A DNA stretch of 64,000 nucleotides from assembly GCF_000328475.2 (NCBI RefSeq), contig NC_026480.1, positions 310,001-374,000 of the forward strand, written 5' to 3'. The notes beneath the pieces are model-generated. The model was not told where the DNA came from and made no database searches. It saw only the letters and a list, made by a program, of their open reading frames with translations. Position 1 is the first letter of the stretch, and every line of letters begins with the position of its first letter. Source of the stretch: Mycosarcoma maydis (lineage: Eukaryota > Basidiomycota > Ustilaginomycetes > Ustilaginales). Shown here piece by piece: positions 33,259 to 38,692 of the stretch. The position numbers and the translations under genes are program-made.

Positions 33259-36200
33259 ATGAAGATCTTGTTCATCTGCACCGCTTTCAATTCGCTCGCA
33301 CAGGTATGTCTTTTCATTCCGATCTGTTTCGTCCCACTTGGAACAATCAAAGTCGCTCTATCGGCTCCAAGTCGCTTGCTCGTTTTTCGCCTAAACAATG
33401 CCAGCTTTTCATCGGCGCTCGATTCGCATCGCCTCATCGATACTCACCCATTGTTTGCTTCTTCATACGCTTTTGTACCATTCTCTCTTCTCGCAGAGAA
33501 CCGCTCTGGTGCTCAGACAGAATGGCCATGCCGTCACGGTCGAGTACGCACTCTCGCCAGAACTCATGATCGAGGCTGCCCAGCTGGCACAGCCCGACCT
33601 CATCATTTGCCCATTTCTCACTAAACACGTCCCACCCAAAGTCTACACCACATGGATGACGCTCATCGTTCACCCAGGCCCACCTGGCGACGCTGGTCCG
33701 TCAGCCATCGACTGGTGCCTGATCGGTGACATGGGAGAGCTTCCGGACGCTGATCAGCAGCTCGCGATTATCGATGCTAAGCACAGTGCAAAAAACGCAA
33801 AGTCCACAATGCGCACCCACTGGGGTGTCACTGTTCTGCAGGCCATCGAGGCTTTTGATGCTGGTCCCATCTGGGCGTTTGACCAATTCGAGCTTACAAA
33901 TTCCAACGCTACCATGACCAAAAGCGACCTTTACCGTGGTCCCATCACCCGCGCCGCTCTCAATGCCGTGCTGGCTGCGGTGGAGCGAATCCACCTCTGC
34001 GCAAAGCAACATGCTCAACAGGCCGGTGCCGTCGCATCTTATTTGCCCATCAGCGCATCGCTCGCCGCACCTTCCCACTTTGCCACGCAGTGCGTCTCTC
34101 ACAGTGTCCCTTTCCTCGGTGGTCGAACACACAACCGCCCCTTGCTGCGGGCTTCTCAGCGCGATTTCTACGCGCTCTTGCCACAGGCCACCACTAGCAC
34201 TCTAAAGCCACGTCTGTCCGCCGATGCGATCCTTCAGCGTGTCCGAAGTGCCGACTCTCAGCCCGGTCTGCTGTCAAGCTTGTTCGGAACGCCTCTGTTC
34301 CTTTACAACGCACATGTTCAGCGCGATCCTCTTCCGCCTGCTGTGGCTGCGAGACAAGCGGCACTCAACCAGGCCGGAACCGTGCTGGCGACGCGCGAGG
34401 GGGCTGTACTCATCGACGTGGGGGCCGATTTTCCTCTCTGGATCGGCCATCTCCGAAGGCCCAAAGCCAAGGCGGACAAGTATATGCATCCCAAGCTACC
34501 GGCCGTCATGGCACTTCTCTCAATGCCCGAGACGGCGGCCAAGCTCAGCTTGTTGGACGCCAGCAAAGTTCCTGAATGGAGTGCTACCACGGGATATGGC
34601 TCTGACCTCGCGCAGCCATGGAAACGACGTCCCGGCACGTATCAGCAAGTGTGGGTTGAAATCGAGTCGAGCGCCAAGACCGGCTCGTTGATTGCCTATG
34701 TACACGCCGACTTTTACAACGGAGCATTCTCCACTACCCAGTGCGAAATCTTGCTCGAGGCGATCCAATGGGCGCTCAAGGTCCCTGGCCTAAAGGCGCT
34801 CGTCATGCTCGGTGGTCCAGGCTACTTTTCCAACGGCATCGCGCTCAACGTTATCGAAGGTTCACAGGATCCATCCGCCGAAGGTTGGGCCAACATCAAT
34901 GCCATCGATGACTGCGTCCAGGCGCTACTGGCACCCAAAGGTATCGTCACTTTTGCGGCAATGCGAGGCAACGCTGCTGCTGGTGGACTGGCGATGGCCA
35001 CGGCAGCCGACTTTGTCATCTGTGCCGAGTCGGCGGTGCTCAATCCTCACTACCGCGGACTTGGCCTATTTGGTTCCGAGTGGCACACCTATTCGTGGTA
35101 CGAACGCTGCGGTTCGCGCGTCGCCGCGAAATTTGCTCGCGAGATGCTGCCTATGAGCTCACACGAGGCCAAGAAGTTTGGCCTGGTGGACCACGTGATG
35201 GACAATGAGCGAATGGACGCGCAAGAGATGCTTACGTCTATCAAGCAGCTCGTCAGCCAAGTCATGGATGCCGACGTTCTCGAAGCAGCCACCGCTGGCT
35301 CGGGCATCGTCGCGTCGGGCGCACCCTGGACACGATCGCTGCGAACTGCATCTGCTGATGCAGCCAAGTCGACTCTGCTCTCGGAACAGGTGCTTGTTAA
35401 CAAGAGTCGCTACCTCGCCTACCTGTTTGCCGAAGATGCTCGCAGCAGTACCGACGATAGAAGGCTGCTGACCCTGGACGAGCATTTCCAGCGTTACCGA
35501 ACGCACGAGCTCGATCAGATGACACTCGACTTTTTTCATCCTCATCGCAACCAGAGATTTGCGAGCCGCTGCACGGGATTCGTACGAAAGCTCGTGCCCA
35601 CCTCGACACCCATGCGATTTGCTCTCCATCGTAGATTCGCAGGTGGCGACTGGTGGTCTGCAGCAGAGGCTCCTATCTCGTCCGACTACCTCGACGAAGA
35701 GGAGAAGGATGAGTTTGACGGTCTCGCCGACTTGCCCGCTTCTTCTGCCGTCGCTCGCTTGGCTTTGACGCGTCCCGAATTCGTCGTGCACAAGTCTGCA
35801 CCATCGAGGATCACCCGCGCCTACAGTGTGGGTCAAGATACGCTCGCTTCTGGTGTCAGCGCAGATGGAGAGGCTCAAGCACCTCTCGGGCTGGATAGCC
35901 AACGCACTTCAACATCGACTGCGCCCACGACTCCACGCGAAGATAGCCCCAAACCGGTGCTCTCGCTGGGCGACGAGGAAGCGCAGCGTGTTGAGATCGA
36001 GGCGGAACAGCTGCAGGTAGAACGTGTTGCATCCAACGCTGGTCTTCTCGGCAACAACGCGGCTGTCAAGCGTGGTCCGACGGTGATCTCGTTCGTTTCA
36101 GCCAACAAGGAGGAAGGTGCTGGCGCTAAAGCCGGTACTGTTGTCAAGGGTCGTGATGACAGTGTTTGTCCTACAGCTGTCAAGTTCTCGCCTACGGCGG

Positions 36201-36838
36201 TGCCTATCAAAGAGGTTGGCGATCCGAACAAGAGATCTCAGAACAAGATCCAGCGCTTCTTTCTCTCTCTAAGTCGCAAAAGCCGCAGCAACTTGCATGC
36301 CGAATCTCAGAAGTCGGCGACTCCCTCGGTAGCAGCTTTCAGCCCCGCAGAGGCACCCGTCACGCCCACGTCATCCACTGCAACTTCATCCCGTAACAAC
36401 GGATCGACTCGTCAACGACGTCGATCTTCGATTTCCGACGTGTTTTCCATCCTCCAAAACTCGAATCGTCCCGTGAATTTGTCCAGCCAGTCTAACAGTC
36501 ACGATTCCAACGCTTCAGGCGCTACTCCTGCTTCGCCCAAAGCAGAACGACGTCGATCTTGGAGACCTTCGTCTTCTTCTGGTCAATCCTTGTCGGATTC
36601 GAACAAATCGTTGCCACCTACACCGGTTGTCAAGCCCAACGGTGGATTCCAACCCAACATCACGGCTACACCCAAGATTGTCGAAGAGACGTTTGTCAAG
36701 GCGATCCCAGCAGACAAGGTGGCTGTGACGCCAGAGGCAAACGCGGACACCAACTGTCTGTGGAGCTGCTACTACTCGGAAGACGGAGTGCAACACCAGC
36801 GTGCTCGCCCCATCTATCCTGAAGTCTCGGCCGTATAA
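33259..36838 (+). CDS. HypX/HoxX-type protein: formyltransferase + enoyl-CoA hydratase fusion with long tail
   Basis: Two exons: 33259-33303 (MKILFICTAFNSLAQ) and 33497-36838, joined by a gtatgt...cgcag intron in phase 0; 1,128 residues. The join restores the HypX N-terminus (FNSLAQRTALVLRQNGHAV), so the splice is well supported. In bacteria HypX transfers formyl from 10-formyl-tetrahydrofolate to CoA and decarbonylates formyl-CoA to CO for the [NiFe]-hydrogenase active site. Seen here: a formyltransferase-like domain (~1-250; LIICPFLTKHVP, VHPGPPGDAGPSAIDW, WGVTVLQAIEAFDAGPIW); the HypX-typical FYNGAFSTTQC; a crotonase domain (~400-600; GGPGYFSNGIALNVIE, NINAIDDC, RGNAAAGGLAMATAADF, LNPHYRGLGLFGSEWHTY); and the HypX C-terminal block (HELDQMTLDFFHP, RCTGFVRKL). 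Residues ~740-1128 are a disordered Ser-rich extension. Function in a fungus without a visible hydrogenase is unknown. Confidence 0.9.
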
Positions 36839-38692
36839 CACTCACGACTTTCGGCATACGCTTTCTACCGCTCTACCGCTCTACCGCTCTACCGCTCTGC
36901 CTCTTTTGCTATCTCTTTGCTATGTTTATTGTAGTTTGGTTTTGCTGGGTCCTTTGGTTTCTGCGTGCTCGGTGCACTATCTTGTCTTACATCTGATTTT
37001 GTTATGGCTTACCTCGTCTGCTACTGGTTTCCGATGTCATTGCAATGGTCAAATAAGTGACCTTGATCATCTATGTTGGGTCTAGCAGGCATGTGTAAAG
37101 CGAAAAGTTGGGGAGTCCAGCCAGGGCCACACTGATGACTGAACTAGGACGCAAGAAGATCGGCGCATGCGAGACGTCAATTAACCGACGACGCTTGGAC
37201 AACTGCGATGCAAGTTAAGCCGTGACCTCCCGAGAGCCAGTCGGAAGTTGACGAGGTCATACAGATCACGTACCGAGCAGCCGACGTGCGAACCGTTTTC
37301 GGCTAATCCAGAATCAGGAATCGTGAATCATTCGGAAACAAGTCACGAGTTGGACGTGGGCAAGAAACGAAACGGCGTGGAGCGGAGAGGCAGCCGACAG
37401 CAAATCGTGAATCACGGATCGTGAATCGCGTCGACAAACCAAACGTGGAACAATCGTGAATTACGCCGAAATCGAATCCTTTGCAGCTGTCATTCATGAT
37501 TCACAAGTGCCAAGTTGGAGTTCGTCTGGTATAACATAACCCTAAAAAAAATCAAAAAGAAAAATCGTCTGGTATAATACCGTGACCCTACGTCAGTCCT
37601 TCTTTGGCTTATGTCTAGTTCACCCCGACTCTTCTCGCCACATCTGGTGACCCTATTGGTGACCGGAAGGGAACAAGGCAAAGCAGCTCTTGTGCTTCTT
37701 GGAACGCTTCAGTCAGCACTCGTGAATCGTGCGTGACTCGTGCGTGACTCGTGACTGTGACTCGGAGTGGCGCGTAAATTTGATGGGTGATTTGTTCGGA
37801 GGAATTCCTGATTCTGTGCTTCTGGTTCCCCCACGTCCAATCTGAGTTCGTGATTGGGTTCTGCCTACTCACCATCCGTTGCTGAAGCCCATCTACCGAC
37901 CTGGAGGTATATTCCGCTCTGATTCGCCCCATTCCATTCAAATTGCCATGTGCTCGATGCACATCGAAGAGCTTGGCAACCCCAACCTTCCCCCACATCC
38001 TTCTGCTTGTTGCTTCGGTGACAGCTGTGTCGAGAGCACAGATTTGGTTTTTTATTCGCCATGCTAATATAGAATATAGAAGCGAGATTCGTGATTCAAG
38101 ATTGGTTTCTTTTCGTGACTCACAACTGCAACCCGACCAAATTTGCCCAAAATATATTAACTTAATACTAAATCTTCATGATTATATTACTAATGATAAT
38201 CGTGATTGGTCACAAGTGGCGAGCACTCACACTCACGACGGGCGTGTGGTGTGGTCGTACGCCACTCTACGCTGCGGTAGACACGGGGGTTACGCCGAAG
38301 TTGCTGCACGTTGTGGGAGAAAAGGTGTTGCCGGTCACTTCTGGTTGCATGATCCAGAGACATACGAGACGATAGGCTTGTACACCAGCAGCATGATGCT
38401 TGTGGCATCTGCACCCCGCCAAACCCGTTTTGCGGATCCCCGCGCTGTAACCTCTCGTTCCCCCCTCGTGACTGTTTGTGTGGTGCCCCTCATCGGTGCC
38501 CCGTACACTCGCTCGTCGATATAAGACCTCTTCTCTTCCAGTGGTACGACATCTTTGCGTCTGTCCTTCACCGCCTGTTGTTACGCGCAACTTCTCTGTT
38601 TCTCCTTAGTCCAGGCACAACTTCCTCAACAACATCCATCCTACCGTCGACTCCCCTTCTCTCAGCCCCACAACTCCATACCTGCTTCAAAC
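36839..38692. other. Intergenic region with dyads and short repeats
   Basis: 1.85 kb between the HypX-like gene and the MFS transporter. It contains a tandem ctctaccg octamer (36864-36897), dyads at 37317-37330 and 37402-37430, a pair of identical 13-mers tcgtctggtataa at 37522 and 37565, a run of gtgcgtgactc units near 37727-37765, and more dyads near 38085-38125. A tcgatataag element at 38516-38525 is a possible TATA region for the transporter. No gene is supported. Confidence 0.6.
36864..36897. repeat. Octamer tandem repeat CTCTACCG
   Basis: About four head-to-tail copies of ctaccgct in the 3' flank of the HypX-like gene. Confidence 0.9.

Follow-up and report, generated by a model that had tools for sequence, protein, structure and literature searches.

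Introduction

HypX (HoxX), a bacterial enzyme of [NiFe]-hydrogenase maturation that supplies carbon monoxide to hydrogen-using enzymes and has been described from Aquifex aeolicus (6J0P) and Cupriavidus necator, is the closest described relative of the gene analyzed here, which lies at positions 33259 to 36838 on the forward strand of a 64,000-nucleotide window of the basidiomycete Mycosarcoma maydis (contig NC_026480.1, positions 310,001 to 374,000; "the window" denotes this whole stretch of DNA). According to the accessible parts of the structural study (PMC6802093), the N-terminal domain of HypX has the fold and the His/Asp residues of 10-formyl-tetrahydrofolate (10-formyl-THF)-dependent formyltransferases. 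A triad (H74, D80 and D109) is assigned to formyl transfer, a pair (Y416 and E426), close to the thiol of coenzyme A, to decarbonylation, and coenzyme A (CoA) is contacted by R9, Q15, R131, S194, Q195, N306 and R542. The same parts place the C-terminal tail and the proposed exit for carbon monoxide (CO) at the domain interface, report that Ralstonia mutants in the equivalents of Y416 or E426 were HypX-minus, and state that direct proof of the reaction was still lacking at that time. The available part of a 2025 review (PMC12134894) credits Schulz et al. with the later demonstration of formyl-CoA and CO formation by HypX.

Our literature searches, which covered open-licence papers and in part best matches only, found no paper on a fungal HypX. 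As judged from the passages available, the apparent cases were a Penicillium marneffei locus name, hypX, in a tyrosine cluster (PMC4374905), a misspelt Hypoxylon (PMC9659194), a reference title (PMC2216082) and HypA/HypB (PMC10100864). In PMC5491491, hoxX occurs in the reference list, and no passage explaining why was found in the available text. We read the M. maydis protein as a cytosolic HypX enzyme that would act outside hydrogenase maturation and make CO for a non-hydrogenase use, a reading to which we give a probability of roughly 0.6.

Results

Overall architecture and comparison with HypX

By sequence and predicted fold, the M. maydis protein is a HypX enzyme; by role, it is not classed as a hydrogenase maturation factor, within the limits of the six-frame genome search described below. 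A single chain holds a formyltransferase-like domain followed by a crotonase-like domain, as in the HypX family. A phmmer comparison with A. aeolicus HypX (6j0p) gave an E-value of 5.7e-80, far above chance, over five aligned stretches, the last two of which (query 278-361 and 696-748) were short and each weak alone. The predicted fold, compared using VIA-align, matched in both domains, and the HypX homology proposed in a preliminary description of this DNA was thus supported. The likeness to HypX/HoxX of A. aeolicus and C. necator comprised the two-domain architecture, the predicted fold, the five catalytic residues, most CoA anchors and a C-terminal segment with E-L..M..F and F-x-x-K. The features of the gene are as follows.

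Exon 1: 33259..33303, + strand; residues 1-15, MKILFICTAFNSLAQ; start of the formyltransferase domain, with no targeting peptide ahead
Intron: 33304..33496, + strand; 193 bases, GTATGT...CGCAG, GT...AG, phase 0
Exon 2: 33497..36838, + strand; residues 16-1128 and stop
N-terminal 10-formyl-THF formyltransferase-like domain: 33259..34477, + strand; approximately residues 1-342, intron within; PF02911 stretch, phmmer and fold match
H74 codon: 33671..33673, + strand; A. aeolicus HypX H74, by alignment
D80 codon: 33689..33691, + strand; A. aeolicus HypX D80, by alignment
D136 codon: 33857..33859, + strand; A. aeolicus HypX D109, by alignment
Crotonase-like CoA domain and its C-terminal helices: 34592..35635, + strand; approximately residues 381-728; sequence and fold match
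Y534 codon: 35051..35053, + strand; A. aeolicus HypX Y416, by alignment
E543 codon: 35078..35080, + strand; A. aeolicus HypX E426, by alignment
Fungus-specific region: 35636..36742, + strand; residues 729-1097; predicted local distance difference test score (pLDDT) mostly <50 in the model
Conserved tail motif LWSCYY: 36758..36775, + strand; residues 1103-1108, Cys1106; modest pLDDT rise

The spliced gene encodes 1128 amino acids. A deposited Sporisorium reilianum protein (P0002) starts with MKILFICTAFNSLAQRTALALRQ, in agreement with the splice and the start of the window protein, and the coordinates and intron given in the preliminary description were right. All of the HypX blocks listed there were also present, namely HPGPPGDAG and WGVTVLQA...FDAG in the formyltransferase-like part, FYNGAFSTTQC, NPHYRGLGLFGSEWHTY, HELDQMTLDFF and FVRK. 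The HypX part stops at approximately residue 728; the 400 further residues, mostly predicted to be disordered and ending near the conserved LWSCYY, had not been mentioned. A cytosolic location is likely because the formyltransferase-like domain begins right at Met1.

An ordinary crotonase or formyltransferase was ruled out by the full two-domain match in sequence and fold; this placement was judged from that match, the trees described below being built of HypX-type rows only. In NCBIfam, the best 25 of 35 families were crotonase-type models, all under their cut-offs. The crotonase family (enoyl-CoA hydratase/isomerase, PF00378) shares the fold of the C-terminal domain of the fungal protein, and the 10-formyl-THF-dependent formyltransferases (FMT, the FDH hydrolase domain and ArnA) share the fold and the His/Asp residues of its N-terminal domain. 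In contrast to these formyltransferases, HypX and the fungal protein carry Asp80 where Ser is usual and are fused to a CoA domain.

Conservation of the catalytic and CoA-binding residues

The A. aeolicus numbering was transferred by hand from the printed phmmer alignment (chain number minus 20), and columns were counted in an alignment of 237 fungal-type and 85 bacterial proteins. The fungal-type rows were the window protein and 236 proteins from three homologue searches; P0001, an unspliced reading of the same gene, was excluded. The formyl-transfer triad was kept in the window protein (H74, D80 and D136) and in 235 of the 237 fungal-type rows, two being gapped there, and the decarbonylation pair (Y534 and E543 in the window protein) was kept in all 237. 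All five residues were kept in 85/85 bacterial rows and were among the 33 of 728 core positions that were invariant in both sets.

With respect to the CoA contacts, Q15 was found in 225/237 fungal rows (12 gaps) and 85/85 bacterial rows, and N306 in 237/237 and 73/85, respectively. S194 and Q195 were kept in 235/237 fungal rows, two having gaps at these columns, but were far less frequent in the bacterial rows (26/85 and 23/85, respectively). The tether to the 3'-phosphate of CoA (S194, Q195 and N306) was kept in the window protein, as judged by residue alone. The R542 column held Lys in all fungal rows (237/237) and in 74/85 bacterial rows, and the R9 column held Ala in the window protein and Arg in just 1/85 bacterial rows. 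Absence of the residues that bind formyl-THF and CoA, named in the preliminary description as one outcome that would count against it, was looked for in the alignment and not seen, and the alignment columns support its statement that both sets of active-site residues are present. HypX chemistry has quite probably been kept in the fungal protein, and we infer that this protein would form CO or formyl-CoA.

Fungus-specific linker and Cys tail

Compared with HypX/HoxX, the fungal side has its own insertions, an acidic stretch after HRR, a linker and a Cys-centered tail motif. Beyond the final segment shared with HypX, which reads RFALHRR in the window protein, an acidic stretch was recognized by pattern in 188/237 fungal rows, followed by the linker and the C-terminal motif. 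Of the 120 proteins from the first search, 118 carried C[YHF]Y past residue 600, and 0/85 bacterial rows carried it past residue 540. A broader tail pattern matched within the last 100 residues of 228/237 rows, and three more (P0017, P0129 and P0224) were added by eye; the motif was missing in six rows (P0015, P0071, P0125, P0127, P0133 and P0149), and the source names describe P0127 and P0149 as partial. Most Tremellomycetes rows had WPCLV or SPCLF at this place. Both anchors were present in 199 rows; in these, the tail columns read mostly [LIV][FYWM][SAP]C[YH]Y, and HRR and the Cys were 47-459 residues apart (median 80). Because the motif is held through such a highly variable linker, it is very probably under selection.

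This fungus-only linker with its strongly kept end motif would also suit a regulator or scaffold, in which the HypX body binds and senses CoA and folate, the disordered linker and Cys tail signal, and catalysis is secondary or lost. We consider such a role improbable, since the five catalytic residues are kept across rows whose core identity, over 2000 random fungal pairs, had a median of 50% and went down to 37%, and since a protein that only senses would have no use for the Tyr/Glu pair.

In the model of P0046, the mean pLDDT was 72 over residues 711-720, which follow a stretch <50, and a short helix was predicted at the Cys. The model of the window protein reached pLDDT >=50 at residues 1083-1094, between two stretches <50, and placed a bridge residue and a short helix at the Cys. 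In each model, one isolated bridge residue stood four positions ahead of the Cys and a second one directly behind the conserved Lys (the A. aeolicus R542 column). Their occurrence in both models hints, at modest model confidence, that the fungal tail may fold back at the domain interface.

Hydrogenase genes in the host genome and neighboring genes

The 19.66-Mb, 27-contig genome, in which the window lies on contig 3, was searched with profiles in six frames. No match was found for the NiFe-hydrogenase large subunit (PF00374) or for HypD (PF01924) in this search, from which intron-cut genes can escape; the same kind of search gave matches for PF02911 (the HypX-like gene only), heme oxygenase (PF01126) and FTHFS (PF01268). 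The protein was classed as a HypX enzyme and not as a hydrogenase maturation factor because the genome was without PF01924 and PF00374 matches; within the limits of the six-frame search, there was no sign that its cell has HypCD and a [NiFe]-hydrogenase for it to serve. Hydrogenase maturation as in bacteria, for a fungal NiFe enzyme that needs CO and has escaped recognition, is suggested by name and homology only. It is very unlikely given that PF00374 and PF01924 gave no match where the other three profiles did, in one fungal genome and with HypC, HypE and HypF not searched for. The fungal protein differs from HypX/HoxX in its host genome, which is without a hydrogenase or HypD match, and in that the fungal proteins form a single eukaryotic clade in the present trees.

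The window contained 15 frames of at least 330 amino acids; besides the HypX-like gene, 10 were scanned and 4 were left unscanned. The scanned frames were identified as Vps52, RIC1, a PQ-loop protein, an MMM1-domain protein, Dre2, an AFG1/DnaJ frame, an FMO-like protein and a protein kinase, and two further frames gave weak WTAP-like and short-chain dehydrogenase matches under the cut-offs. None of these 10 frames was a hydrogenase or hyp gene, so that the absence of a hydrogenase partner noted in the preliminary description held for the scanned frames as it did for PF00374 and PF01924 in the genome. Directly 3' of the stop codon of the HypX-like gene, at 36865-36899, short tandem copies of CTACCGCT were seen by eye.

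Distribution in fungi and origin

Each of the three homologue searches returned the best 120 matches, and absence from them is uninformative; many rows are metagenome proteins classed as fungal by similarity, and P0032 is from a eukaryote transcriptome collection. The nearest named proteins among the matches listed were from Sporisorium and Ustilago (72-73% identical). The matches listed also included Tilletia (with the former two, Ustilaginomycotina), Puccinia, Melampsora and Cronartium (Pucciniomycotina), Rhizoctonia (Cantharellales), Kwoniella, Cryptococcus amylolentus and Cutaneotrichosporon (Tremellomycetes), and many Pezizomycotina (Fusarium, Colletotrichum, Claviceps, Cladosporium, Zymoseptoria and Orbilia). 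Several were already named "hydrogenase maturation factor HoxX" in the source databases. As judged by these sequences, fungal HypX is a family across Dikarya and not an isolated oddity, which corrects the preliminary description.

Mariannaea sp. PMI_226 (P0208, P0217, P0224 and P0229) and Xylariales sp. PMI_506 (P0155 and P0209) each had several HypX-like proteins. A few multi-copy ascomycete HypX-like proteins of the family had a linker of just 47 residues and tails such as FPCHY.

Two trees were built, both unrooted and without an outgroup, Tremellomycetes or other named eukaryotes. The first contained 95 rows (33/33 bacterial loci without and 28/52 with nearby hydrogenase genes, and 34 of the 120 proteins from the first search), and all fungi fell on one side of one branch with a Shimodaira-Hasegawa-like approximate likelihood ratio test (SH-aLRT) value of 100. 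The second contained 49 rows (16 fungi, 8 Nonomuraea-type and 25 other bacteria); the fungal split had support of 100/100, and the split of fungi plus Nonomuraea-type actinobacteria from the rest had 98/97. The 85 bacterial loci were the best 80 of at least 567 confirmed relatives of the fungal query plus five plasmid loci, a sample that leans toward fungus-like proteins. The simplest reading would be one early acquisition from bacteria, the direction being putative because the trees are unrooted.

The nearest non-fungal relatives found were bacterial, as would be expected for bacterial contamination or a recent stray transfer. Such an origin is hardly credible, given the intron in the gene, its fungal neighbors (RIC1, Vps52 and Dre2) and the relatives in many named Dikarya, of which the sampled ones form one clade; the same evidence upholds the earlier view of a resident gene. 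In viral contigs, 3 stretches fitted a pattern, and none encoded a relative.

HypX without hydrogenase genes in bacteria

Neighboring hyp and hydrogenase genes were sought with C. necator and Embleya proteins in flanks of at most 9-10 kb on each side, several contigs being far shorter. In 33/85 bacterial HypX loci, no hyp or hydrogenase protein was found within the flanks examined. Thirty of these 33 orphan-looking loci came from genome contigs, and 29 whole genomes were searched. HypD was not found in 9/29, and three added controls were all positive. Eight of these nine genomes were also without a PF00374 match, one metagenome-assembled genome (MAG) having two, and the three controls all matched. 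The eight were from Nonomuraea thailandensis, Nonomuraea sp. SBT364, Nocardia macrotermitis, Nocardiopsis halophila, Peribacillus huizhouensis and three MAGs (loci L009, L015, L026, L035, L047, L052, L067 and L081).

Among 120 genomes of the N. thailandensis family, HypX was found in 5 (E 1e-60 or better) and HypD in 70. Two of the five HypX genomes had HypD (G035 and G101) and three did not (G003, G040 and G132), compared with 68/115 of the others; HypX in this family does not track HypD, five genomes being few. Nonomuraea-type actinobacterial HypX forms the nearest branch to the fungi among the sampled bacteria. In the first tree, 12/13 rows of this branch were not beside hyp genes, and some of the genomes were without HypD. 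Unlike the fungal protein, Nonomuraea-type HypX has neither the linker nor the Cys tail.

The plasmid HypX loci of Acaryochloris marina and Mycetohabitans rhizoxinica also had no hydrogenase neighbors, as judged from the loci only. A hydrogenase is listed for A. marina in the available part of PMC2974642, where the legend of the HypX tree names bacteria only. M. rhizoxinica is a relative of fungal endosymbionts, and its own close relatives are listed from Rhizopus. Its HypX (plasmid locus L006, 9926-11680) stands alone and lies near an acyltransferase, an acyl carrier protein (ACP), an acyl-CoA dehydrogenase and an amino acid:ACP ligase. Because of the orphan bacterial loci and genomes, HypX use outside hydrogenase maturation may predate fungi, real functions and relics both being possible.

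Further observations were made on the bacterial loci. Two Shewanella and one Peribacillus orphan locus (L025, L052 and L086) had a common membrane-type protein family of approximately 1058 amino acids, and in a Chloroflexi MAG (L046, 580-3246) HypX extends to 888 amino acids, approximately 300 above the usual length. Two clostridial HypX genes (L010 and L016, Clostridium polyendosporum and Oceanirhabdus) lie beside hyp genes, in contrast to the available part of PMC12134894, which describes HypX as the way in which the CO ligand is obtained when oxygen is present.

Discussion

In eukaryotes, enzymatic CO is mainly credited to heme oxygenase and, in some fungi, also to quercetinase. We propose that the fungal HypX would work in two steps. 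In the first, suggested by the conserved H74/D80/D136 and the fold, the N-terminal domain would take the formyl group from 10-formyl-THF and pass it to a CoA molecule that is tightly bound. In the second, suggested by the conserved Y534/E543, the CoA arm would swing into the crotonase domain, where formyl-CoA would be split into CO and CoA. The CO would then serve a non-hydrogenase client as a ligand or signal. With weaker grounds, the fungus-only Cys tail might fold back on, or dock from, the enzyme and gate release or hold a partner.

Several results weigh against this proposal. The heme oxygenase match in the genome is another possible CO source, and the HypX-like enzyme would not be the sole source of CO because heme oxygenase is also encoded. 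HypD was present elsewhere in 20/29 genomes with an orphan-looking HypX. When 437 open reading frames (ORFs) around the 33 orphan bacterial loci were clustered, no family except HypX was common to many groups, and no conserved neighbor thus indicated a client; the clustering was crude and weak, covered bacteria only, and its ORF picking recovered HypX itself in 21/33 loci. R131 was replaced by Gln in 24/237 fungal rows. Additionally, the His before Y416 (NPHY), found in 85/85 bacterial rows, was retained in 56 of the 237 fungal rows and replaced by Ala in 169 and by Ser in 12. By protein id, the rows with His came from smuts, rusts and Rhizoctonia together with a few others, and those with Ser from Kwoniella and Cryptococcus. 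As far as the sequences indicate, the vicinity of the second site has thus changed in a large part of the fungal family, but not in the window protein, which keeps this His (codon 35048-35050).

This drift bears on a different product, in which the N-terminal domain forms formyl-CoA and the fungal crotonase site hydrolyzes it or passes it on, for THF recycling or formyl handling, with CO not being the product. The N-domain triad and the CoA anchors are kept, the residue beside the catalytic Tyr is now Ala or Ser in 181/237 fungal rows, and no hydrogenase client was found in the genome search, all of which would agree with a maker of formyl-CoA or formate. We nevertheless regard this product as rather unlikely, since Y416 and E426, whose loss is HypX-minus in Ralstonia (PMC6802093, accessible part), are kept in every fungal row and the window protein retains the NPHY His.

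Returning to the reading of a CO-forming HypX, a bolder version can be offered tentatively, and it is more doubtful than the reading itself: Dikarya may have a dedicated, folate-fed CO synthase independent of hydrogenase and of heme oxygenase, in which the Cys tail replaces the HypC/HypD partner and either gates the mouth of the cavity or holds a metal or metal-protein client that receives CO.

Fungi may thus make CO from one-carbon metabolism for a non-hydrogenase purpose. A HypX-based CO route in Dikarya would be in line with those bacteria in which HypX is retained and no hydrogenase is present. The enzyme is defined and testable, with one purified protein, two substrates and one gaseous product, and the Cys tail offers a concrete handle for finding the client. 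If the reading is true, the conserved Dikarya HypX would be an added route that ties folate metabolism to a gas ligand.
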